Both the position numbers and the translations under genes were made by a program. The notes under the pieces are model-generated. The model made no database searches. It was not told the origin of the DNA and saw only the letters and a program-made list of their open reading frames with translations. Positions 8,181 through 34,568 of a stretch of DNA of 64,000 nt are shown here, in pieces. Within the stretch, counting starts at the first letter, position 1. Every line of letters begins with the position of its first letter. Source of the DNA: Desertimonas flava (GTDB lineage: Bacteria; Actinomycetota; Acidimicrobiia; Acidimicrobiales; Ilumatobacteraceae); assembly GCF_003426815.1 (NCBI RefSeq), contig NZ_QKYK01000008.1, forward strand, positions 1-64,000, read 5' to 3'.

Positions 8181-8277
8181 GAACGGTCACTCCTCGCGGT
8201 CAAGGCGAGGGAGGAGCTTGCTCCGACCGAGGCGTTCAAGCGGCCTGCGTGGCCGGGGAACGCAGTGAGAGGCATGC
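8181..8277. repeat. Junction repeat between prcB and prcA
   Basis: Positions 8201-8265 match 15791-15856 in reverse complement with only about three differences in 65 bp. The core CGGCCTGCGTGGCCGG is at 8241-8256, with GGAGCTTGCTCC forming a small hairpin near 8213. The segment is bounded on the minus strand by two copies of TGAGCATGCC, one at the prcB stop (8271-8280) and one at the prcA start. Confidence 0.88.
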
Positions 8278-9123: not shown

Positions 9124-9324
9124 TTACTCGCCGCCCTTTTGCACGTACGACTTGACGAAGTCCTCGGCGTTGGTCTCGAGGACGCCGTCGATCTCGTCGA
9201 GGAGATCGTCGAGCTCGGCCTTGAGCTTCTCGCCGGCTTCGCTGGTCGCCGGCGCGGTTTCGGCGACCTCGGTGGATTCTTCGGTCCGCCCGGTCGACTT
9301 GGACTTCTGCGTGCGTTCGGCCAT
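9124..9324 (-). CDS. pup: Prokaryotic ubiquitin-like protein Pup
   Basis: 66 aa from ATG 9324. GGAGGTGG five bases upstream decides this start over an in-frame ATG at 9339. It has the disordered N-terminus, the Mpa-binding coiled-coil region [19 protein letters not shown] (32-50), and ends YVQKGGE. The C-terminal Glu is encoded directly, so deamidation of a terminal Gln by Dop is not needed before PafA uses it. dop lies 18 bp upstream and prcB 51 bp downstream on the same strand. Confidence 0.96.
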
Positions 9325-9342: not shown

Positions 9343-10857
9343 CTACGAGCCCAGGCGGGCGAGCAGCTCGGCCGCGGTGGTGCTCTCGTCGATCAACTTA
9401 GCCACGTGCTCTGCGGTTCCGCGCAGCGGCTCCATCATCGGAACCCGGCTGAGTGGCTCGCGTCCGGCGTCGAACACCATCGAGTCCCAGTTGGCGGCGA
9501 CGATGGCGTCGGCGTACTTGTCGAGACAGCGACCCCGGAAGTAGGCCCGGGTCGTGGTGGGCGGGGCGGTCATCGATGCGATCGCGTCGTCGGGGTCGAT
9601 GATCGTCTCCAGCCCGGCGCGGCGGGCGAGGCTGCGGTCGGGTCGCAGGTCGTGATACTGCAGGTCGATCGCCTTCAGACGGGCGTCGCCGACGGACAGG
9701 TCGTGGCGGGCGGCGTAGCCCTCGACGAGGCGGCGCTTGGCCACCCAGTCGACCCACGGCGCGACCGACTCGGGATCGGACTCCAGCCCGGTGAGGACCT
9801 GTTCCCATCGCGTCAGCACGTCGCGGCCGACGTCGGCACCGACGCTGTCGAGCCCGTGGTGCTGCTCGTATTTCTTGGCCGCTTCGAAGAGCCCCCACTG
9901 CACCTCGATCGCCGTCGCCCGGCGGCCGTCGGCCAGCATGATGGTCGCCGTCAGCGACGGATCGTGGCTCACCTGGCGGATCGCCGGCACGGGGTGGGCC
10001 AGCAGCCACTCGTCGCCGAGAACGTCGTCCTCGATCATCGACAGCACGATCTGCGTGGTACCCACCTTGAGGTAGGTGGCAACCTCGGCCATGTTGGCGT
10101 CGCCGACGATGACATGCAGTCGTCGGTACTTCTGGGCGTCGGCGTGAGGCTCGTCGCGCGTGTTGACGATGGGCCGCTTCAGCGTGGTCTCGAGCCCGAT
10201 CTCCTCCTCGAAGAAGTCGGCCCGCTGGCTGAGCTGGAACGGCACGGCGTCGTGGTCGGTGCCGGGCATCTCGATGCCGACCTTGCCGGCGCCGCAGAAC
10301 ACCTGGCGCGTGACGAAGTGGGGCGTGATCTGGCTGGCGAGTCGCCCGAACGGTGTCTGCCGGGCGAGCAGGTAGTTCTCGTGGCAGCCGTAGCTGTTGC
10401 CCTTGCCGTCGGAGTTGTTCTTGTAGACGACGATCTCGCTGCCGCGCGTGGTGGCGGTGCCCTGCACCAGTTGCGCGTTGGCCGCGTCGACCGACACCCG
10501 GATGATCTCCTCGGCGGCACGGTCGAAGCGCACGGCGTCGTAGGCCGTGGTGACCTCGGGGTTGGAGATCTCGGGATGGGCGTGATCGACGTAGTACCGG
10601 GCCCCGTTGGTGAGCACGGCGTTGACGAGCGACGTCTCCAGTTCGGGCACCATGACGTCGTCGAGGTTGAACCCACGGGCGTCGCTCCCCGGGCGCTCGT
10701 CGTTGAAGTCCCAGCCGGTGCGTTGCCGCCCCCGGTCGGTGATGCGGGCCATGTAGGCATTGATCAACAGCGACGAGGCCGAGACCGGGTTGGACTCTCC
10801 CCCGCGCACGATGATGCCGTACTCGGTCTCGATGCCACAGACCTTCGGCAGCGCCAT
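9343..10857 (-). CDS. dop: Depupylase/deamidase Dop
   Basis: 504 aa. A PafA paralogue of the glutamine-synthetase-like fold: VCGIETEYGI (Glu10), YYVDHAHPEISNPE with catalytic Asp91, [20 protein letters not shown] and [20 protein letters not shown]. The insertion at about 43-66 (RGRQRTGWDFNDERPGSDAR) corresponds to the Dop loop that PafA lacks. Dop removes Pup from substrates. Because Pup here already ends in Glu, depupylation is probably its main role. It is divergent from the secreted-protein gene at 10939. Confidence 0.96.
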   Translation of the reverse strand: MALPKVCGIETEYGIIVRGGESNPVSASSLLINAYMARITDRGRQRTGWDFNDERPGSDARGFNLDDVMVPELETSLVNAVLTNGARYYVDHAHPEISNPEVTTAYDAVRFDRAAEEIIRVSVDAANAQLVQGTATTRGSEIVVYKNNSDGKGNSYGCHENYLLARQTPFGRLASQITPHFVTRQVFCGAGKVGIEMPGTDHDAVPFQLSQRADFFEEEIGLETTLKRPIVNTRDEPHADAQKYRRLHVIVGDANMAEVATYLKVGTTQIVLSMIEDDVLGDEWLLAHPVPAIRQVSHDPSLTATIMLADGRRATAIEVQWGLFEAAKKYEQHHGLDSVGADVGRDVLTRWEQVLTGLESDPESVAPWVDWVAKRRLVEGYAARHDLSVGDARLKAIDLQYHDLRPDRSLARRAGLETIIDPDDAIASMTAPPTTTRAYFRGRCLDKYADAIVAANWDSMVFDAGREPLSRVPMMEPLRGTAEHVAKLIDESTTAAELLARLGS

Positions 10858-11616: not shown

Positions 11617-13305
11617 TCAGAGGTACTGGCCGGTGGCGACCCGCTCGATGGCGCGCCCGCCGGCCGGATCGTCGGCGGCGCCCTCGTTCACCAGGGTGCG
11701 GATGAACACGATGCGCTCGCCCTTCTTGCCCGAGATCTTGGCCCAGTCGTCGGGGTTCGTCGTGTTCGGCAGGTCCTCGTGCTCCTTGTACTCCTGCTTG
11801 ATCGACGCCAGGAGGTCGGCGGTGCACACGCCCTTGGGACCGCCGCTGATGACCCGCTTGATGGCCAGCTTCTTGGCCCGGCGGACGATGTTCTCGATCA
11901 TCGCCCCCGACGAGAAGTCCTTGTAGTACAGGACTTCCTTGTCGCCGTTGGCGTAGGTGACCTCCAAGAAGCGGTTGGCCGTGTCCTCGCGGTACATCTC
12001 GGCGACCGTCGACGTGATCATCTCGGGCACCGACTCCGACTCAGCGATCGGGATCTCGTCGGTGAGGTAGCGCGAGAAGATCTGCGCCGCGGCCTCGCTG
12101 TTGGGGCGCTCGATCTTGATCTTCACGTCGAGGCGGCCGGGGCGCAGGATGGCCGGGTCGATGAGGTCCTCGCGGTTCGTCGCACCGATGACGATGACGT
12201 TGCGCAAGCCCTCGACGCCGTCGATCTCGGCGAGCAGCTGGGGGACGATGGTGGACTCCATGTCGGAGCTGACCCCGGTGCCCCGGGTACGGAACATCGA
12301 GTCCATCTCGTCGAAGAAGACGATGACGGGCCAGCCTTCCTCGCTCTTCTCACGGGCCCGCTGGAACACCAGGCGGATCTGCCGCTCGGTCTCGCCGACG
12401 TACTTGTTGAGCAGCTCTGGGCCCTTGATGTTGATGAAGTAGCTGCGGCCCTTCTCGTCGCCGGTGGCCGAGGCCACCTTCCGGGCGAGGCTGTTGGCCA
12501 CCGCCTTGGCGATGAGCGTCTTGCCGCACCCGGGTGGCCCGTACAGGAGGATCCCCTTGGGCGCCGGCAGGCGGTGCTCGGCGAACAGCTCGGCGTAGAG
12601 GAACGGCAGCTCGACGGCGTCGGCGATCTGCTCGATCTGGTTGTCGAGACCGCCGATGTCCTCGTAGGAGATGTCGGGCACCTCCTCGAGGAGGAGATCC
12701 TCCACCTCAGGTCGAGGCAGCTTCTCGAGCAGCAGGTTCGAGCGGTGGTCGAGCCGCATCGTGTCGCCGGCGCGCAGGTGGATGCCGCGCACCCCGTCGG
12801 CCAGTTCGCAGATGCGCTCCTCGTCGGCCCGGCCCACCACCAGGGCCCGCACGCCGTCCTCGAGCACTTCTTTGATGGTGACCACCTCGCCGGTGACCTC
12901 GGCGGAACGGGCGAGCACGACGTTGAAGCTCTCGTTGAGGACGACCTCGGAGCCGATCTCGAGGGTCTCGAGGTCGATGTCGGGATGCGCCGACACCTTC
13001 ATCTTGCGCCCGTTGGTGAGCACGTCGACGGTCTCGTCGTCGTTCTTGCCGACGACGACGCCGTACGCCGAAGGAGGCTGGGTGAGCTTGTCGACTTCGT
13101 CGCGCAGCGTGGCGATGTGGTCACGCGCCTCGCGCAGGGTGTAGGACAACTTCTCGTTTCGGGCAACCGCCTGCGACAGCTGGCCCTTGGTCTCGAGCAA
13201 CCGCTCCTCGAGTGCACGCATGCGCTTGGGGGCGTCGGCGAGCCGGGCGCGAAGGTGATCGACCTCAGCCGTCAGTGCGGCGATTTGCTCCAGCGAATCC
13301 GCCAC
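11617..13305 (-). CDS. mpa: Proteasome-associated AAA ATPase Mpa/ARC
   Basis: 562 aa from a GTG at 13305, with GAGGAGG five bases upstream. Residues 5-75 form the N-terminal coiled coil that captures Pup, and about 80-200 hold the tandem OB domains. The AAA module has Walker A GPPGCGKT (256-263), Walker [10 protein letters not shown] (327-335) and [17 protein letters not shown] (375-391). The C-terminus GQYL is the proteasome-docking tail seen in mycobacterial Mpa. The hexamer unfolds pupylated substrates into the PrcAB chamber. It is divergent from the ferredoxin gene. Confidence 0.97.
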
Positions 13306-13474
13306 GAGTACCTCCTCGGGTCCGATACCTCAAGTCACGACCCTACACACGTGCCCCGACGACGCGGCGGCATGTTCGTCGGCGCCGCGTGCACAGGCCC
13401 GGCGACGAGGCGGAGTCAGGCGCCACACCCGGCCATCTATGTTTCCACGACCGTCACCGGGTAATCTCCAATTC

Positions 13475-13720
13475 ATGAAGGTCTGGATCGACCAGGATCT
13501 GTGCACGGGTGACGGACTCTGCGAGGAGATCGCCCCGGACGTGTTCACGTTGCTCGACGACGGGCTCGCCTACGTCAAAGAAGGCGACAAGATCTACGCC
13601 ACGGCCAAGGGCAATCCCCAGGGTGCCGAGGGTCTCGCCGAGATTCCCGACGGTCAGCTCGATGCAGTCATCGAGTCCGCCGAGGAATGCCCCGGCGAGT
13701 GCATCTTCATCGAAGCCTGA
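13475..13720 (+). CDS. Small ferredoxin with CxxDxxC motif
   Basis: 81 aa from ATG 13475. Cluster ligands are Cys10, Asp13 and Cys16 (CTGDGLC) plus Cys72 and Cys76 (ECPGECIF). This is the layout of small single-cluster [3Fe-4S]/[4Fe-4S] ferredoxins in which the second Cys of CxxCxxC is replaced by Asp. Cys72 precedes Pro as in the family, and Cys76 is extra. It is probably an electron donor to an unknown oxidoreductase. It is divergently transcribed from mpa across 169 bp. Ferredoxin genes next to the ARC ATPase are, as I recall, common in actinobacteria. Confidence 0.85.
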   Translation: MKVWIDQDLCTGDGLCEEIAPDVFTLLDDGLAYVKEGDKIYATAKGNPQGAEGLAEIPDGQLDAVIESAEECPGECIFIEA

Positions 13721-13942
13721 CCAGCACCCTCGCCGCGCGCCGGCGTGGACCGGTCGCGAGCTGACCAACCCGCGGACGCCGTCGGGGGTTGCTCGAAGGG
13801 GGATTCCCCCTTCGATGCGGCGACGAGCGGAGCTTGCTCCGCCGCCGCTTCTTTCGATTCTTCGTGCGAGCGAAGCGAGCACCAAACAAACTCGCCGCAG
13901 GCGAGCGAGGAGCGAAGCGACGACGCTCGCCGAGGACGAAAC
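13721..13942. repeat. Convergent intergenic element, copy B (~200 bp)
   Basis: Positions 13744-13941 align with 2704-2904. The two stems are conserved by paired changes: GAAGGGGGATTCCCCCTTC (13795-13813) against GGAGGGGGATTCCCCCTCC in copy A, and GCGGAGCTTGCTCCGC (13827-13842) against GCGCAGCTTGCTGCGC. It lies between the convergent ferredoxin and trmI genes, and no gene was seen in it. Confidence 0.88.
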
Positions 13943-14722
13943 TCAGCCGAGGTAGCGGGCGGCGGTGAGGAAGCCGGTGTGGGCGACCATGCGATGGTCG
14001 GGGCGGACGGCTTGGCCTTCGATGTGCCACCCGCGGTGCAACACCTCGAGGGTGCGGGCGTCGATCCACTTGCCCTTCAGGGCCTCGCGGGTCTGGGCGG
14101 CCTGGGTGATCGACGGCGTGTACGCCACGAGGATCCCACCCGGCACCAGCACCTTCTCGGCGTGCGGCGCCACCTGCCAAGGCTCCGGCAGGTCGAGCAG
14201 CACCCGGTCGAAGCCCACGCCGGCGTCGGCCGGGTCGATTCCCTCGTAGCTGTTGCGCAGCTTCACCTCGTAGCGCTCCAGCGCCGACTCGCCGAGGAAC
14301 TCGGCGACGTTGCGCTGGGCGCGTGCCGCGAAGTCCTCACGCAGCTCGTAGCCGACGATCGACACGCCGTAGCGCAGCATCGTCATCGACAGGGCCCCCG
14401 AGCCGACCCCGGTCTCGAACACGCGCAGGCCGGGCGCGATGTCGGCGAGCATGCAGATCGGCGCCAGGTCCTTGGGATAGATCACCTGGGCGCCGCGGGG
14501 CATCTCGATCACGACGTCCTCGAGCGTCGGTCGCAGCACCGTGTACTCGCTGCCTCGCGTCGACCGAACGACGATTCCCTGGCGGCGCCCGACGATGTCG
14601 GCGTGGGGTACGAACCCGTTGTGGCTGTGGAACTCGCCGCCGTCCTTCAGCGTGACGAGATAGCGGCGCTTCTTCGAGTCCAGCAGGATGACCCGGTCGC
14701 CGTGCTGCAATTCGTTGCTCAT
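13943..14722 (-). CDS. trmI: tRNA (adenine-58-N1)-methyltransferase TrmI
   Basis: 259 aa. The N-terminal beta domain (1-75) is followed by the AdoMet motif FETGVGSGALS at 102-112 and LLDLPEPWQV near 176-184, as in Rv2118c-type TrmI. It makes m1A58 in the T-loop of tRNAs. The gene follows ttuA on the same strand, and m1A58 pairs with the nucleotide at position 54 that TtuA thiolates in Thermus. The ATGA of its start is repeated at the ttuA stop 62 bp upstream, with a dispersed repeat core between the copies. Confidence 0.95.
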   Translation of the reverse strand: MSNELQHGDRVILLDSKKRRYLVTLKDGGEFHSHNGFVPHADIVGRRQGIVVRSTRGSEYTVLRPTLEDVVIEMPRGAQVIYPKDLAPICMLADIAPGLRVFETGVGSGALSMTMLRYGVSIVGYELREDFAARAQRNVAEFLGESALERYEVKLRNSYEGIDPADAGVGFDRVLLDLPEPWQVAPHAEKVLVPGGILVAYTPSITQAAQTREALKGKWIDARTLEVLHRGWHIEGQAVRPDHRMVAHTGFLTAARYLG

Positions 14723-14808
14723 CGTCTCCGGCCGTTCCGCTGCGTTCCCCGGCCACGCAGGCCGTGTGCTTGCACGTTGCTCATCGTCTCCGGCCGTTCC
14801 GCTGCGTT
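14714..14808. repeat. 33-bp direct duplication flanking a junction-repeat core
   Basis: Positions 14714-14746 and 14776-14808 are identical over 33 bp, including the minus-strand ATGA that starts trmI and ends ttuA. Between them lies the core GCGTTCCCCGGCCACG (from 14742) and a short linker. This looks like a duplication associated with arrival of the repeat, or a 62-bp tandem duplication. Confidence 0.88.
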
Positions 14809-15785
14809 GTCACCAGTTCCACCGGGACCGGCTCGTGGGCGGCCGACTTCTCGACGATGCGGCAGAACGCACACACACGGGGGGCTCCGCCCTCCGTGGA
14901 TCCCCCAGGGCCGGTCGACCCTCCCGCCGTCGTGGGGGCGCCACAACGCTCGCAGAGGCCCAGGCCCTCGACGACGGTCTGACGCGACTCGGCCAGGATC
15001 GGCGCCATGTTGTCGAGGAAGTTGAGGTAGAACGACGCCTTCGAGCCCGGCGAGCGGGCCTCGACGGCGTTGAGCGTCTCCTTGTACCCGAGGTGTCGGT
15101 TACCGGCCGCCATCGGGCACTCCTCCACCTGGTAGTCGATGCCCCGGACGATGCACCATGCGGCCATCTCCCGTTCGGTCAGGCGCACGAGCGGCTTCAC
15201 CTTGCGGGGGAAGTGCTCGTCGCCGGGCAGCACCGGCAGCTGGCGAGCCAGATAGTCGATGTCCCAGCGCAGCGTGTTGCCGAACAGCACGGCGGCCTCG
15301 TCGTCGAGATTGTGCCCCGTGGCGACGACCGCGTACCCGCCGTCGTGCGCGGCGCGATCGAAGAGGTGGCGCTTCGACGTGCCACACGCCGAGCACGGCA
15401 CCCGCCGGGTCGCCTTCGCCGCGGTCGGCACGTCGTAGCCGTACTCGTCGCGCAGGTCGATCGTGTGCAGCGTGAGGCCGCGCTCGTCGGCGAAGCGCTG
15501 CGCGTACCCGCCGCTCTCGTCGGAGTACTCGCCGATGCCGAGGCCGATATAGACGCCGTCGGCCTGGTAACCGAGGTCGACCAGGAGGTCCCAGACGGCG
15601 AGGCTGTCCTTGCCGCCGCTGACCGCGACGAGCACCCGCTCCCCCGGTTCCAGCATGCGGAAGTCCTTGATCGCCTTCTCCACCTGCCGGCGGCACAGCT
15701 GCTGGAGGTGCTCGCCGCAGAAGTTGGCGTTGTGGCGCGGCAGATCGATGATCGCCGGCGCCTTGCACACCTTGCACTTGCTCAT
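14781..15785 (-). CDS. ttuA: tRNA 2-thiolation enzyme, TtuA family
   Basis: 334 aa from ATG 15785. An N-terminal zinc finger (Cys4, Cys7, Cys23, His26), the PP-loop SGGKDS (56-61), three cluster Cys at 131, 134 and 223, and a C-terminal zinc finger (Cys278, Cys281, Cys305, Cys308). This layout, including cluster Cys spacing within one residue of Thermus TtuA as I recall it, identifies the TtuA rather than the TtcA branch. TtuA adenylates U54 of tRNA and inserts sulfur delivered by the ubiquitin-like TtuB, whose likely homologue is the next gene upstream. The C-terminus ends in a basic RNGRRR tail. Thermophiles use this enzyme for heat stability of tRNA, so its role in this organism is open. 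Confidence 0.88.
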   Translation of the reverse strand: MSKCKVCKAPAIIDLPRHNANFCGEHLQQLCRRQVEKAIKDFRMLEPGERVLVAVSGGKDSLAVWDLLVDLGYQADGVYIGLGIGEYSDESGGYAQRFADERGLTLHTIDLRDEYGYDVPTAAKATRRVPCSACGTSKRHLFDRAAHDGGYAVVATGHNLDDEAAVLFGNTLRWDIDYLARQLPVLPGDEHFPRKVKPLVRLTEREMAAWCIVRGIDYQVEECPMAAGNRHLGYKETLNAVEARSPGSKASFYLNFLDNMAPILAESRQTVVEGLGLCERCGAPTTAGGSTGPGGSTEGGAPRVCAFCRIVEKSAAHEPVPVELVTTQRNGRRR

Positions 15786-15957
15786 TGCTGCTGCGTTCCC
15801 CGGCCACGCAGGCCGCTTGAACGGCTCAGTCGGAGCAAGCTCCTCCATCGCCTTGGCCCGGAGGACCATGGGACGCTCGCTGCGCTCACTGAACTCAGGA
15901 CCGTCCGGGTGTCAGGTACTCCGGGACGCTCGCTGCGCTCGCTGTTGTGCGTCATGA
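15786..15957. repeat. Junction repeat between the TtuB-like gene and ttuA
   Basis: Contains the core GCGTTCCCCGGCCACGCAGG (from 15793), the 65-bp extended match to 8201-8265, and two copies of GACGCTCGCTGCGCTC (near 15872 and 15926). The core ends eight bases before the ttuA ATG. No gene was seen. Confidence 0.85.
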
Positions 15958-16158
15958 TCACTGCATACCGCCACTGATGACGGGGCGGATCTCGACGGTG
16001 TCGCCGTCGTCCAGCCGATCGTCTCCCGGAACGAGCGTGCCGTTGCGGATCACCAGGTGGGCCTCACGACTGAGGCCGAGCTCGTCGAGCAGGGCCGACA
16101 CGGTGCGCGGACCGGAGATCTCGACGGTCCGCCGCGGGTTGCGCAGCAGGACGTTCAC
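15958..16158 (-). CDS. Ubiquitin-fold sulfur carrier, TtuB/ThiS/MoaD-like
   Basis: 66 aa from GTG 16158, overlapping the end of the upstream gene by 4 bp. The length, the beta-grasp pattern (MNVLLRN, then TVSALLDELGL, then VIRNGTLVPGDDRLDDGDTV) and the terminal PVISGG fit the TtuB/ThiS group. The protein does not end at Gly-Gly but at GGMQ, so two residues must be removed before C-terminal thiocarboxylation. Its position beside ttuA argues for TtuB rather than ThiS or MoaD. In Thermus, TtuB also conjugates to proteins. The E1-like activator is not in this window. Confidence 0.82.
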   Translation of the reverse strand: MNVLLRNPRRTVEISGPRTVSALLDELGLSREAHLVIRNGTLVPGDDRLDDGDTVEIRPVISGGMQ

Positions 16159-16415
16159 CTGCGGACTTTCCCCTTGCGGATGATTCGCTTGGGGTGCACG
16201 GTCTCGACGACCAGCGTCTGGTTGGGCTCGAGCTTCTCGACCGACAGGAGCTGGGGCTCCGAACCCATCAGCTTGCGAAGGAGGCGGCGGCCGTAGATGA
16301 CGAAGAACACGACGCGCCACAGCCCGTCGTCGCCGAGCAGCCCCTTGTTGATGCTCTTGCGCCGGGCGTAGGCGGCCAGGGCCAGCATCCGGCCCCGGCG
16401 CCGGTAGCGGGCCAT
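16155..16415 (-). CDS. Small basic hypothetical protein
   Basis: 86 aa, strongly basic at both ends (MARYRRRGRM and RIIRKGKVRR), with a central hydrophobic stretch LWRVVFFVIYGRRLLRKLMG that could lie on a membrane. The C-terminal half, from PQLLSVEKLEPNQTL, may bind nucleic acid or lipid, but no family is recognised. It overlaps the TtuB-like start by 4 bp and is 3 bp from the gene upstream, so all belong to one transcript. Confidence 0.7.
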   Translation of the reverse strand: MARYRRRGRMLALAAYARRKSINKGLLGDDGLWRVVFFVIYGRRLLRKLMGSEPQLLSVEKLEPNQTLVVETVHPKRIIRKGKVRR

Positions 16416-16418
16416 CGA

Positions 16419-16634
16419 TCAGACCCGGCGGATCTCGACGAACGTGGTCTTGCGGCGACCCGAGCGACGACCGAAGAAGAACACCAGCAGCAGCAGCACG
16501 ACCCCGGCGACGGTGGCGACCGTGACCAGGGTGTTCTTGCGGTCTTCCACCTTGCCCTTGAGCCCGGTCTGCACGGCCGCGAAGCCCTGCTCGAGATCGT
16601 CGCGGGTGATGGGGGCCGAGGAACCCTTGGACAT
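16419..16634 (-). CDS. Small single-pass membrane protein
   Basis: 71 aa. A charged N-terminal region (APITRDDLEQGFAAVQTGLK) is followed by one membrane helix (VTVATVAGVVLLLLVFFFG) and a basic GRRSGRRK stop-transfer segment. No recognised family. Its ATG overlaps the stop of the upstream holin-like gene by one base. Confidence 0.72.
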   Translation of the reverse strand: MSKGSSAPITRDDLEQGFAAVQTGLKGKVEDRKNTLVTVATVAGVVLLLLVFFFGRRSGRRKTTFVEIRRV

Positions 16635-16996
16635 CAGTGCTTCTCCCTACTGTTTGCCGGGCGGTCGGAGCCCGGCTTGACGATGCGCAGGTACGCCAGG
16701 GCGAGGAACGCCAGGCAGACGACGAGCACCATGACGTAGGCGAGCCACGAGAGCGACCCGCTGGCGGTGCGCTCGATCTCGGTCTGGAACAGGCGCAGCA
16801 GACCGAGCAGCACGAGCGAGCCGCCAAGCGCGGTCAGCAGGGCGCCCCCGATGCCGAAGCCGAGGAACTTCCCGGCCCCTTTGATGGGTTCGATCGTCTC
16901 CTGTTTGGCGTACGTCTTGACGAGATCGACCACCCCGCCGATGGACGGGTCGCTGAGCTCGGGACGGGCGCGCTTGTCGTCGGATCGGTTCGCCAC
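16634..16996 (-). CDS. Holin-superfamily III-like membrane protein
   Basis: 120 aa with two membrane helices (about 45-68 and 83-105) and a Gly-rich first helix (FLGFGIGGALLTALGGSLVL), resembling chromosomal proteins assigned to the actinobacterial Phage_holin_3_6 family. No phage genes are near, and the gene heads an operon of small proteins leading to the TtuB-like gene and ttuA, so lysis is unlikely. A regulatory or structural membrane role is inferred only. Confidence 0.6.
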   Translation of the reverse strand: MANRSDDKRARPELSDPSIGGVVDLVKTYAKQETIEPIKGAGKFLGFGIGGALLTALGGSLVLLGLLRLFQTEIERTASGSLSWLAYVMVLVVCLAFLALAYLRIVKPGSDRPANSREKH

Positions 16997-17056
16997 GCCG
17001 ACGTTTCTATCAGCTGGAGGGTGCAGAAGCGGCCGATCCCGACCCTGGAAAGCTCG

Positions 17057-19963
17057 TCACACCGGCTCGACGGCGATCTGGATGAACTGGTCGAGCGGCA
17101 GATGCGTGGCGATGAACGCCTGAACGTCGGCCGCGTCCACGCCCGGCAGTGCGTCGAACTTCTCGATGAAGTCGACGGCGTTGCCCTCGGGATCGAGCGC
17201 CCCGGCGAGCAGGGTCTCGATCACGGTCCCATTGTTGACGAACCGGTAGGCCTCGGCGATCTGGGCGGAGGCCTCGTCGAACTCGTCGGCCGTCGGGCCG
17301 GAGGCCGCCAGGTCGGCCAGCTCGGCGATGACGAGGCCGCCGACGGCCTCGATCCGATCGGGTGCACCGCTCACCTCGATCTCGGTCACGATCGTCGGCT
17401 CGGGATCGTTCCGTACGGTGATCGAGGCGTTCGGCGAGTAGGACTCGCCGAGCCGTTCGCGGATGACCTCGATGAGGCGGGCGTCGACCACCTGGGTCAC
17501 GACGTCGAGCGTCGCCTCCAGGGAGGCGTCGGTGTCAGGCACCGGGCTGGTGAACAGCAGCGTGAGATTGGCCGTCTCGCCGGTCCCGGCGTGGACCACC
17601 TCGCGCACGACCCCGTCGGGTGGTGGAGTGTCGAGGTCGACCTCGGGCTCGGCCCCCGGCGACCCGGGCAGCGTGCCGATGTACCGGGCGGCCAGGTCGC
17701 GCAACACGGCGGGATCGAAGTCGCCGGCGAACGTGAAGACCCAGTCGCCGACGTCACCGAAGCGGTCTCGCCACACCCGTTCGACGCCGGCCAGATCGAG
17801 CGTGGCGAAGTCGGCGCCGGTGGGCACCACGTCGAAGCGCGGCTCGTCGCCGTAGCGGGCCGCGTGGAGGGCGTCCGAGCCGGCCGCGCCGGGAGACGTC
17901 GACACGTCGTCGACCACCGGTTGCATGCCCCGCTGCACCTGGGTGAGGGCCACGGGATCGAAGCGCGGCGCGGTGACGTAGAGGTGCACGAGTTGGAAGA
18001 GGGTCTCCAGGTCCGACGACGACGCCCGGCCGGCGAGGTTGTCGGTGTACGGGGTGAGCCAGGCGCTGATCCCCGCGCTGTGGCCGGCCAGGTAGGCCTC
18101 CAGCTCGTTCTGGCTGACGTCACCCACCCCGCTCGACATGACGACGTCGGCGGTCGAGAGGGCGTCGATGACATCCTCGTCGGCCACGAGTGACGTGCCG
18201 CCGAGACTGGCGGCGCCGAACCCCACCTCACCGACGACGATGTCGGTGGGCGCGGCGACGACGCGCGCACCGTTGGGGAAGACCAGCTCGAACGCCTCGT
18301 AGATGCCGGCGTCGCCGCCCGTGGCCTCGCCGTCCGACGTCGGTGCCACCGGCTCGGGCGCGATCATCAGGGCAGCCGGCGCCTCGGCCCCGGTGGCCCG
18401 CGGCTCGATCGGGCGCGAGGCGAGATCGTCGATCATCGCCAGCACGTCGGCCTCGGTCGGCATGTCCGCCTCGTACGCGGCCGGGCTGGAGATGATGACG
18501 TGCGGTGCGCTGTTGTCCCATCGGGCGCGGAAGCGCAGGTCGAGTGCCTCGGGAGTGATCGCGGCGAGCATGTCGGTGGCGGTGGCGTAGAACTCTGCGG
18601 TCGACGGCATCGCCGAGCCGATGAGGAAGTTGGCGACGTAATCGTCGGCGAAGACCTCGTCGGGGGTCGACTCCGCGCTGGCCGCCATCGAGTCGAACGA
18701 GGACTGCAGGCTCGCCCGGGCGACGTCCAGCTCCGTCTGGTCGAATCCGAAGCGGCTCGCTCGCTCGTACTCGTCGAGCAACGCCTGAAGGGTCTCGTCC
18801 ACCCGGTCCGGCCCGGTGAACGCGTAGAGGGCCGGGGCGTCGAGCGAGTCGACGAACGAGTTCGTGCCCGGCACCACGTCGTCGAACGGCGCGCCGCCGG
18901 TCGACGCATCGGCCGAGAGCCGGCGGATGAGCGACTCGAAGATCATCGAATCGAGGATGTCGGCCCGCAGCCGGGCCGTTCCCGAACCCTCGAACGCGGG
19001 CAGCGGCAGGGTCACCTCGACGTCGACGCTCGTCTGATCGGGGTCGCTGTGGAGGGCGAAGGCGGGCTCGATGTCGATGCCGAAAGAGGTGTTCGGCGGC
19101 TTCGGGGCTTCCGGGGTGCGCGGCGTCGCGTCGGCGAAACGACCCTCGATGTCGGCGACGATCGCCTCCGCGTCGATGTCGCCCGTGACGACGATGGCCG
19201 CGTTGTCGGGTCGGTACCAGTCGTCGTAGTACTGGCGCAGCTCGGCGACCGGCACGGCCCCGATCGACTCCGCCGTCCCGATCGGGCTACGCCCTTCGTA
19301 CGCGGTGCCGGCGAGGTAGAGGTCCTCGGCCACGTCGAACAGGCGCCCTCCGACATCTTGGGTGCTGCGGCGCCACTCGTCGGTCACGATGCCCCGTTCG
19401 GCCTCGACCTGGGCCGGGTCGAACGACGCCGCCGTCAGCCACTCGTGGAGCACGTCGAGCCCGATGTCCACCGACTCGTCGTCGTTCGGCACGCTCAGCA
19501 TGTACACCGTCTCGTCGTAGGACGTGTAGGCGTTGATGTCGGCACCGAAGCGGGCGCCGAAGCGGCTGAGCACGTCGATCAGCTCGTTCTCGGGGTACCT
19601 GGCGGTGCCGTTGAAGAGCATGTGCTCGACGAAGTGGGCGACCCCGGAGTTGGGACCGGTCTCGTTCGCGGAACCGGCCCGGATCGCCAGGCGCAGCTCG
19701 GCCTTGCCGCCCGGTTGCTCGTTGTGACGGACGTAGTAGCGCAGCCCGTTGGGCAGCGTGCCCATGCGGACGTCGGGATCGTCGGGGATGGCTGCGTCGG
19801 CCGGATCGAGCAGACCGGGCAGGGCCACGTCGGCACGCGGGGCGGCATCGAGCGTCTGGTCGACCGGTGGTTCCGGTGGCGCGGTGGCCCCCGCAGTGGT
19901 CGCGCCGGCGGCGAGGACCGCCGCCACGATCGGGATCAGATGGCGGCCCAACCCACGTTGCAT
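17057..19963 (-). CDS. Secreted M16 family zinc metallopeptidase
   Basis: 968 aa from ATG 19963. A signal peptide (about 1-28, ending TAGATA) precedes two M16 halves. The inverted zinc motif HFVEH is at 110-114 (His110, Glu113, His114), with the third ligand region VEAERGIVTDEW near 186-197. The second half (about 540-968) lacks the motif, as in pitrilysin-type enzymes, and would serve as the partner domain. Extracytoplasmic peptide degradation is the likely role. No lipobox Cys is present. Confidence 0.9.
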   Translation of the reverse strand: MQRGLGRHLIPIVAAVLAAGATTAGATAPPEPPVDQTLDAAPRADVALPGLLDPADAAIPDDPDVRMGTLPNGLRYYVRHNEQPGGKAELRLAIRAGSANETGPNSGVAHFVEHMLFNGTARYPENELIDVLSRFGARFGADINAYTSYDETVYMLSVPNDDESVDIGLDVLHEWLTAASFDPAQVEAERGIVTDEWRRSTQDVGGRLFDVAEDLYLAGTAYEGRSPIGTAESIGAVPVAELRQYYDDWYRPDNAAIVVTGDIDAEAIVADIEGRFADATPRTPEAPKPPNTSFGIDIEPAFALHSDPDQTSVDVEVTLPLPAFEGSGTARLRADILDSMIFESLIRRLSADASTGGAPFDDVVPGTNSFVDSLDAPALYAFTGPDRVDETLQALLDEYERASRFGFDQTELDVARASLQSSFDSMAASAESTPDEVFADDYVANFLIGSAMPSTAEFYATATDMLAAITPEALDLRFRARWDNSAPHVIISSPAAYEADMPTEADVLAMIDDLASRPIEPRATGAEAPAALMIAPEPVAPTSDGEATGGDAGIYEAFELVFPNGARVVAAPTDIVVGEVGFGAASLGGTSLVADEDVIDALSTADVVMSSGVGDVSQNELEAYLAGHSAGISAWLTPYTDNLAGRASSSDLETLFQLVHLYVTAPRFDPVALTQVQRGMQPVVDDVSTSPGAAGSDALHAARYGDEPRFDVVPTGADFATLDLAGVERVWRDRFGDVGDWVFTFAGDFDPAVLRDLAARYIGTLPGSPGAEPEVDLDTPPPDGVVREVVHAGTGETANLTLLFTSPVPDTDASLEATLDVVTQVVDARLIEVIRERLGESYSPNASITVRNDPEPTIVTEIEVSGAPDRIEAVGGLVIAELADLAASGPTADEFDEASAQIAEAYRFVNNGTVIETLLAGALDPEGNAVDFIEKFDALPGVDAADVQAFIATHLPLDQFIQIAVEPV

Positions 19964-33911: not shown

Positions 33912-34568
33912 TCAGTTCGTGCTTCCCGTGTGACTGGAGTGGGTGGGATCGGTGGGTGTGGAGCCCTCGAGGAGGCCGAGGAACTGCCCGTGGAGCCGGG
34001 CGTCGGCGGTGAGCTCCGGATGGAAACTGGCGGCGACGATGGAGCCGTGGCGAACGAGTACCGGCTCGCCGTCGTGCCGGGCGAGCACCTCGACACCGTC
34101 ACCGACCGCCTCGATCCGCGGGGCGCGGATGAAGACACCGTGGAATGGGGTGTCGAGGCCGGCGACCACGAGCTCGGTCTCGAAGCTGGCGATCTGACGA
34201 CCGTAGCCGTTGCGCCGGACCGTGATGTCGAGCGCCCCGAAGTGCCGCTGGTCGTCACGCCCATCACGGATCGTTCCGGCCAGCAGGATCATGCCGGCGC
34301 ACGTGGCGAACACGGGCATGCCGTCGTCGATGCGCTTGGCGATGGGGTCGAACAGCTCGGACGACGTGAGCAGGTTCGACATCGTGGTGGACTCGCCACC
34401 CGGCATCACCAGGCCGTCGACCATCCGCAGTTCGATCGGCGTGCGCACCTCGCGCACGGACGCGCCGAGGGCGCGCAGCCGGTCAGCGTGGGCCCGGAAC
34501 GCTCCCTGCAGCGCCAGGACGCCGACCGTCGGCGTTCCCCGGCCACGCAGGCCGATCACCGGATCCAC
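33912..34568 (-). CDS. pdxT: Pyridoxal 5'-phosphate synthase glutaminase PdxT
   Basis: 218 aa from GTG 34568, with GGAG seven bases before. Class-I glutaminase residues: PGGES (56-60), Cys90 (FATCAGMILLAG) and the late His/Glu in ASFHPELTAD. It supplies ammonia to PdxS in vitamin B6 synthesis. The first 12 residues (MDPVIGLRGRGT) precede the usual start VGVLALQG and are encoded by the dispersed junction-repeat core at 34532-34554, so the repeat has become coding sequence. Confidence 0.94.
   Translation of the reverse strand: MDPVIGLRGRGTPTVGVLALQGAFRAHADRLRALGASVREVRTPIELRMVDGLVMPGGESTTMSNLLTSSELFDPIAKRIDDGMPVFATCAGMILLAGTIRDGRDDQRHFGALDITVRRNGYGRQIASFETELVVAGLDTPFHGVFIRAPRIEAVGDGVEVLARHDGEPVLVRHGSIVAASFHPELTADARLHGQFLGLLEGSTPTDPTHSSHTGSTN
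34532..34554. repeat. Junction-repeat core inside the pdxT 5' end
   Basis: GCGTTCCCCGGCCACGCAGG and three more matching bases equal the cores at 14742 and 15793 exactly. It is the only one of the five cores found in a reading frame. Confidence 0.88.

Follow-up and report, generated by a model that had tools for sequence, protein, structure and literature searches.

The 64-kb stretch of Desertimonas flava DNA analysed here (NZ_QKYK01000008.1, positions 1–64,000; the window) carries at 13943–16996 what we read, with a probability of about 0.72, as a tRNA thiolation operon of the TtuA/TtuB type from an actinobacterium that is probably mesophilic, in which the ubiquitin-like sulfur carrier bears a C-terminal tail and beside which the Pup-proteasome cluster is a mere neighbour. 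The core of the operon comprises genes for a TtuB-like carrier (15958..16158, 66 aa), a TtuA-type enzyme (14781..15785) and a protein of the TrmI family of tRNA methyltransferases, which form 1-methyladenosine at position 58 (m1A58; 13943..14722, 259 aa). All three lie on the minus strand, 5' of the Pup-proteasome cluster, in the order carrier, TtuA, TrmI, as a first-pass annotation of this DNA had described, and the same order recurs in all 30 class loci read (those of the best-scoring 30 of the 60 Acidimicrobiia genomes with TtuA); the arrangement is therefore not due to chance. Sequence comparison leaves the interpretation of the operon as a tRNA modification unit well supported.

Identity of TtuA and TrmI

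The TtuA gene encodes a putative tRNA U54 2-sulfurtransferase of 334 aa (plus stop codon) that is 51% identical to Thermus TtuA and has T. thermophilus TtuA (5b4e, E = 1.2e-82) as its best match in the PDB; it scores 281 bits against Thermus TtuA, 218 against archaeal TtuA and 76 against NcsA. The Pfam model TtuA_LIM_N matches at 9.8e-10, over its cut-off, and ATP_bind_3 is barely over (27.3 vs 27). The PP-loop SGGKDS occupies residues 56–61, and alignment to Thermus TtuA confirms both of the zinc fingers reported in the first-pass annotation (ligands Cys4, Cys7, Cys23, His26 and Cys278, Cys281, Cys305, Cys308) and the three cluster cysteines, which had been correctly numbered as Cys131, Cys134 and Cys223 (Thermus 130/133/222). 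Lys138 corresponds to the catalytic K137 of Thermus, a position that is lysine in 136/136 entries compared and arginine in the single NcsA used, and the equivalent of Thermus D161 is also conserved. A TtuA-type enzyme accompanied by a carrier and TrmI, as had been proposed, is thus borne out by the bit scores and the catalytic lysine. A quick tree (LG+G4), for which a single long-branched NcsA served as root (a root that alone cannot test the monophyly of TtuA), places the window protein on the TtuA side, in a group with the TtuA of Thermus and of other bacteria and away from archaeal PH0300. The C-terminal zinc ribbon of the window protein has a longer insert than that of Thermus (23 residues, Cys281–Cys305), and the insert in locus L023 is long too.

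TrmI has Rv2118c (1i9g, 3.1e-60) as its best PDB match and exceeds the cut-offs of both Pfam models, GCD14 and TrmI-like_N. Among 50 further TtuA genomes (the sources of loci L134–L144, L146–L167 and L169–L185) 45 have a clear TrmI match (E no higher than 1.3e-15), two a weak one and three none. This frequent occurrence alongside TtuA fits the role of m1A58, the product of TrmI, as a determinant favouring U54 thiolation, as described for Thermus (PMC7912444).

The carrier, its tail and its fusions to TtuA

The carrier belongs to the beta-grasp ThiS family (Pfam PF02597, 1.7e-10, over cut-off), has TtuB (5ztb, 3.6e-7) as its best PDB match and adjoins TtuA in each of the 30 class loci. Read from a GTG start it ends in VISGG-MQ, so that a TtuB-type Gly-Gly end would be reached only after trimming. 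Tails of 1 to 64 residues past Gly-Gly occur in 27 of the 31 class carriers (the window's included), the other four ending in Gly-Gly, and 136 different TtuA entries divide into 81 with a tailed carrier, 27 with a Gly-Gly-ending carrier, 16 with a carrier fused to TtuA and 12 with no adjacent carrier (at least five of the 12, namely L153, L168, L170, L195 and L196, lie at contig ends). The carrier core terminates in Gly-Gly in 130/130 entries, duplicates kept and every fusion included. Three genomes of the same family as the window (G002, G027 and G071; loci L059, L060 and L064) have carriers that end in Gly-Gly, and the 64-residue tail in locus L021 contains a second copy of EIRPVISGG near its end.

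In Nitriliruptoria and some other actinobacteria the carrier and TtuA form a single open frame. We found 18 such loci, 16 of them distinct, including L136, L137 and L146 from Nitriliruptoria and the single-contig genome L202; in 14 of the 16 there is no ATG, GTG or TTG from Gly-Gly to the first zinc-finger cysteine, and two hold an ATG. One fusion, modelled with AlphaFold from an alignment, reaches a mean predicted local distance difference test score (pLDDT) of 88, with Gly-Gly (62–63) in a low-confidence linker (61–64), and the PDB structures that the model matches best are Thermus TtuA chains, mostly from TtuA–TtuB entries; a single-sequence fold of the fused protein (pLDDT 34) was uninformative. 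The claim that fusion arose several times was dropped: parsimony gave three changes, or two without both internal-ATG entries, and a constraint uniting the 14 strict fusions in one group was not rejected (approximately unbiased test, p-AU 0.585). A limited literature search turned up no report of a carrier–TtuA fusion or of an actinobacterial TtuA; as far as that search went, the tailed carrier beside TtuA and the carrier–TtuA fusion are undescribed variants.

Predicted maturation and the proposed pathway

In Thermus, the free iron of the cluster in TtuA is described as being coordinated by the C-terminal carboxylate of TtuB (PMC7138817). Since TtuB presents a free C-terminus to the cluster, residues past Gly-Gly should block the reaction, and maturation by a JAMM-type protease is predicted. 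A JAMM protease of Deinococcus is reported to cut a MoaD–MoaE fusion, yielding a terminal glycine (PMC8832034), and thiouridine is reported to be down by ~50% in a Thermus JAMM mutant (PMC3980101). The D. flava genome has one PF14464 match, outside the window, a JAMM protein whose intact motif HSHTHTEPYPSPTD satisfies H-S/T-H-x7-S-x2-D, and elsewhere it encodes a rhodanese-E1 that is predicted to activate the carrier. In this E1 (L055, 1040–2209) the rhodanese domain is N-terminal and the ThiF domain follows it. As read off profile-search listings, the 60 TtuA-containing class genomes include 58 with a JAMM match and 56 with a clear E1, and JAMM is encoded in all five named fused genomes. JAMM is present with 50/54 tailed or fused carriers and with 14/23 that end in Gly-Gly (Fisher p = 0.0016), a set of 77 entries left from the 136 after removal of the 12 that lack an adjacent carrier and of 47 carrier entries with no JAMM state assigned; an earlier test on 41 entries gave p = 0.034.

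We propose that the carrier is synthesized as a precursor with residues past Gly-Gly, the part of the pathway visible in the sequence itself, that the JAMM metalloprotease would trim this tail, and that the rhodanese-E1 would adenylate and thiocarboxylate the freed glycine, by analogy with the Thermus and Urm1 pathways. TrmI would make m1A58 and so favour the next step, in which the 4Fe-4S cluster of TtuA would hold the carrier C-terminus, ATP would activate U54 and sulfur would pass to C2; both of these last steps are established in Thermus. We give even odds to a more general form of the proposal, that in mesophilic actinobacteria the carrier is a masked precursor (tailed, or a ubiquitin-like-Gly-Gly-TtuA fusion) whose diglycine is freed by JAMM, giving a thiolated U54, possibly without TrmFO.

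Evidence against the proposal and alternative explanations

Several observations weigh against this pathway, and those that concern the carrier C-terminus would be expected if tails and fusions had arisen neutrally where genes overlap or merge, with no dedicated processing. Of the 84 tailed genes, 55 share 4 bases with the start of the TtuA gene, and tails may therefore be a by-product of gene overlap. Tail state is labile, with 16 changes on the tree; four tailed entries, all metagenome-assembled genomes (MAGs), have no JAMM match; and the association of tails with JAMM is not significant when kinship is corrected for with phylogenetically independent pairs (median p 0.5), so that it gives weak support for processing. 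However, Gly-Gly is kept in every carrier entry and in all of the fusions, the named fused genomes all encode JAMM, and without a free terminal glycine there would be no Thermus-like binding of the cluster iron as described in PMC7138817. We consider neutral tails rather unlikely and prefer processing of the carrier by JAMM.

A second group of observations would fit an enzyme whose target is a different tRNA position (U34, for example, as in NcsA) or that uses free sulfide, with the carrier serving mainly another pathway such as cysteine synthesis. Gene content is compatible with a U34 role. The NCBIfam TtuA equivalog NF049949, a model named for the Pyrococcus type, matches the window protein at 4.7e-71 and 239 bits, below its cut-off of 450, which is reached in 0/148 class and 0/396 Actinomycetota genomes. 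The D. flava JAMM gene (L054, 4732–6410) precedes a CysM-like gene, with ~100 bases and no CysO carrier gene between them, and its position next to a gene for cysteine synthase means that the protease may act on a different carrier; four ThiS-family matches occur in the genome. Four Nitrospira-type TtuA genes for which upstream sequence was available (L151, L162, L173 and L182) differ from most others in that no adjoining carrier was found, L153 and L170 ending too near the gene to judge. Against such a role stand the adjacent TrmI, whose product is described as favouring U54 thiolation in Thermus (PMC7912444), the far closer resemblance of the enzyme to the TtuA of Thermus and of archaea than to NcsA, the lysine at the position of Thermus K137 where NcsA has arginine, the natural carrier–TtuA fusions, and the fact that carrier and TtuA go missing together (see below). 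A target other than U54, or a carrier mainly for other purposes, is in our judgement improbable, and U54 thiolation fed by the carrier remains the preferred interpretation.

The substrate for thiolation in Thermus is 5-methyluridine (m5U) 54 made by TrmFO, and to the points already given must be added that TrmFO was over cut-off in none of 41 genomes, the window's own included, the search returning two weak short matches. In the 50 further TtuA genomes TrmFO is over cut-off in 27, and the seven actinobacterial ones among them (G176–G181 and G187) gave no match. The sole m5U-type methylase match in the D. flava genome scores as RlmD, and we do not conclude that the 5-methyl group is missing at U54: TrmFO gave no match in this genome, yet the RlmD-type enzyme is there. 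For Mycobacterium tuberculosis, m5U has been predicted to be made by a Trm2 (PMC10531406). A review gives 2-thiouridine at position 54 in Sulfolobus, described there as an organism without a trmA gene (PMC7912444); the original Sulfolobus paper left U or pseudouridine at 54 undecided (PMC7668247).

Distribution and the Pup-proteasome neighbourhood

TtuA was counted in 60 of 148 class genomes (E 1.2e-29 or better) and in 84 of 396 Actinomycetota genomes (E 1e-40 or better), 16 of the 84 matching at 1e-44 to 1e-49 only, which may be partial or belong to another subgroup. Scanning of named genomes yielded at least 539 confirmed relatives, of which 80 were kept, and the matches listed include Nitrospira moscoviensis, Chloroflexota, Rokubacteria, known thermophiles and acidimicrobial MAGs. 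One 1.3-Mb genome (G390, locus L186) has two TtuA-like genes, and two contigs titled Bifidobacterium breve (L119 and L129) hold acidimicrobial-type operons, their titles looking wrong.

Pup is found in 111 of the 148 class genomes; class-wide co-occurrence with TtuA was not used, as the ~1-Mb genomes of family f14 that were listed lack both. From Pup neighbourhoods we chose by hand 17 long stretches with TtuA and 19 without it, excluding the short fragment L072. Carrier, TrmI, Arc, Dop and Pup are present in all 17. The carrier is absent from all 19 TtuA-less stretches, by BLAST and by hidden Markov model searches up to E 10, and these retain TrmI, Arc, Dop and Pup in every case, as well as the small upstream genes p120 (18/19) and p71 (17/19), which places p71 outside the thiolation cassette. 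This joint presence and loss indicates that carrier and TtuA form a unit and that the proteasome cluster is independent of them: the Pup cluster is a neighbour via TrmI, not a partner.

The first-pass annotation had suggested a link between two tagging systems, the carrier also acting as a protein tag together with Pup, which we rejected on the joint presence/absence pattern in the 19 stretches and on lysine content, and which we regard as very improbable. Some observations favour it: the genes are ~5.5 to 7 kb apart (Pup, placed at 7 kb in that annotation, lies at 5.5 kb when measured from TtuA and at 6.6 kb when measured from the carrier, in a neighbourhood that is itself real and common to the 17 TtuA stretches), Thermus TtuB is reported to conjugate to TtuA and TtuC, with conjugation altered in a JAMM mutant (PMC3980101), and the conjugation lysine, Thermus K137, is invariant in the entries compared. 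However, Pup is present in 111 class genomes and TtuA in 60, conservation of K137 is also accounted for by catalysis (PMC7138817), A and R occupy, in the window TtuA, the positions of the conjugated Thermus residues K226 and K229, the window carrier has no lysine (as is true of 20/126 carrier cores, duplicates not removed), and the two groups of genes are separated by a ferredoxin gene on the other strand and by a terminator-like site of weak signal.

Temperature range of the hosts

The clade of 13 entries that includes the window contains loci titled Ilumatobacter, Ilumatobacteraceae and also Acidimicrobiaceae; Ilumatobacter and Ilumatobacteraceae we take to be mesophiles. The titles of acidimicrobial MAGs point to lakes, fens, bogs or peat and sludge (habitat from titles only), and the D. 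flava lineage is probably mesophilic. Occurrence in such a lineage had been called unexpected, which holds with respect to the literature, where 5-methyl-2-thiouridine at position 54 (m5s2U54) is linked to thermophiles and described as 'not from mesophiles' (PMC6313347), and given the Ilumatobacter titles of the clade, but not within the group itself, where TtuA is common at the class and phylum frequencies given above. If our interpretation is correct, 2-thio-U54 would not be merely an adaptation to heat, and some other explanation would be needed for what it does in temperate bacteria.

Layout of the locus

The region assigned to the operon in the first-pass annotation holds the three genes named there and also three small upstream genes, transcription on the minus strand running p120, p71, p86, carrier, TtuA, TrmI. 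The product of p120 (16634..16996, minus strand, 120 aa) has weak similarity to actinobacterial Holin-X (PF07332, 2.5e-5, below cut-off), and that of p71 (16419..16634, minus strand, 71 aa) has one hydrophobic stretch by eye and no reliable Pfam family. The third, p86 (16155..16415, minus strand, 86 aa), shares 4 bases with the carrier gene, is without family match and has a BLAST match in 5 of the 30 class loci. Carrier and TtuA genes are separated by 172 bases in the window; a 4-base overlap between the two is seen in 56 of 112 entries with separate genes.

The 22-base repeat GGCCTGCGTGGCCGGGGAACGC has four exact copies in the window (8242–8263, 14742–14763, 15793–15814 and 34532–34553) where none is expected. 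Two of the four are immediately 5' of start codons of this operon, one of ttuA, within the 172-base gap (15793..15814, minus strand), and one of trmI (14742..14763, minus strand). Repeats resembling GCGAGCGAAGCGAGC give seven matches at no more than two mismatches between 2827 and 15942, against 1.0 expected. There are no tRNA genes within the window, and neither an Rfam scan of 13000–17300 nor a sigma-70 promoter scan of 13700–17300 gave a match.

A terminator-like hairpin (13890..13909, minus strand, two overlapping matches) lies 3' of trmI, a weak signal, as the region gave three matches where shuffled sequence leads one to expect 1.2. A 4Fe-4S ferredoxin gene on the plus strand (13475..13720, start picked by eye; Fer4_15, 1.3e-17) separates trmI from the proteasome genes and is present in 33 of the 36 long class stretches. 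The proteasome genes are on the minus strand and encode the Arc/Mpa proteasomal ATPase (11617..13305; TIGR03689, 3.7e-224), Dop (9343..10857; TIGR03688, 8.3e-169) and Pup (9127..9312; PF05639, 6.1e-22). Pup ends in GGE, so deamidation by Dop before ligation should be unnecessary.

Comparison with known systems

The closest parallel in content is the TtuA–TtuB–TtuC–TrmI pathway of T. thermophilus, which makes m5s2U54 and shares with D. flava the catalytic and zinc-binding residues of TtuA, a TtuB-like carrier, TrmI and a genomic E1 and JAMM; the window differs in the carrier tail, the lack of a detected TrmFO, the Pup-proteasome neighbours, the probably mesophilic host and the rhodanese domain on E1. 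The MoaD–MoaE fusion of Deinococcus radiodurans and its JAMM (PMC8832034) are alike in that a carrier is fused ahead of the enzyme that it feeds, with a predicted cut after Gly-Gly, but here the partner is the tRNA thiolase TtuA and cleavage is predicted only. Other carriers joined to or lying beside an enzymatic partner include the fusions ThiS–ThiG, MoaD–MoaE and ThiS–sulfite reductase (PMC1779556) and, in archaea, ThiS beside PP-loop enzymes and a fusion of a ubiquitin-like protein to Cgi121 (PMC2948915); in the accessible parts of these two sources none is described with TtuA. The archaeal NcsA and Ncs6 U34 thiolases have the same PP-loop, three cluster cysteines and zinc fingers, but they differ from the window TtuA in their distant sequence, in arginine in place of the catalytic lysine and in an anticodon target.

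In mycobacteria TrmI (Rv2118c) presumably adjoins the Pup-proteasome genes, as it does in the window, and we know of no carrier–TtuA cassette at that mycobacterial locus. QbsE and HcyS, which serve siderophore and methionine pathways, are carriers that we take to have a short tail past Gly-Gly trimmed by JAMM (a literature search on this gave nothing); the short tail and the genomic JAMM are features shared with the window, where the carrier adjoins TtuA. The switching-on of a masked carrier by JAMM may also be likened to the release of eukaryotic ubiquitin from ribosomal-protein fusions. If the proposal is correct, bacteria would have a simple equivalent of the processing of ubiquitin precursors in this protease-activated carrier, which some lineages join to the very enzyme that modifies the tRNA, and the carrier system would offer a ready test bed for the specificity of JAMM proteases.

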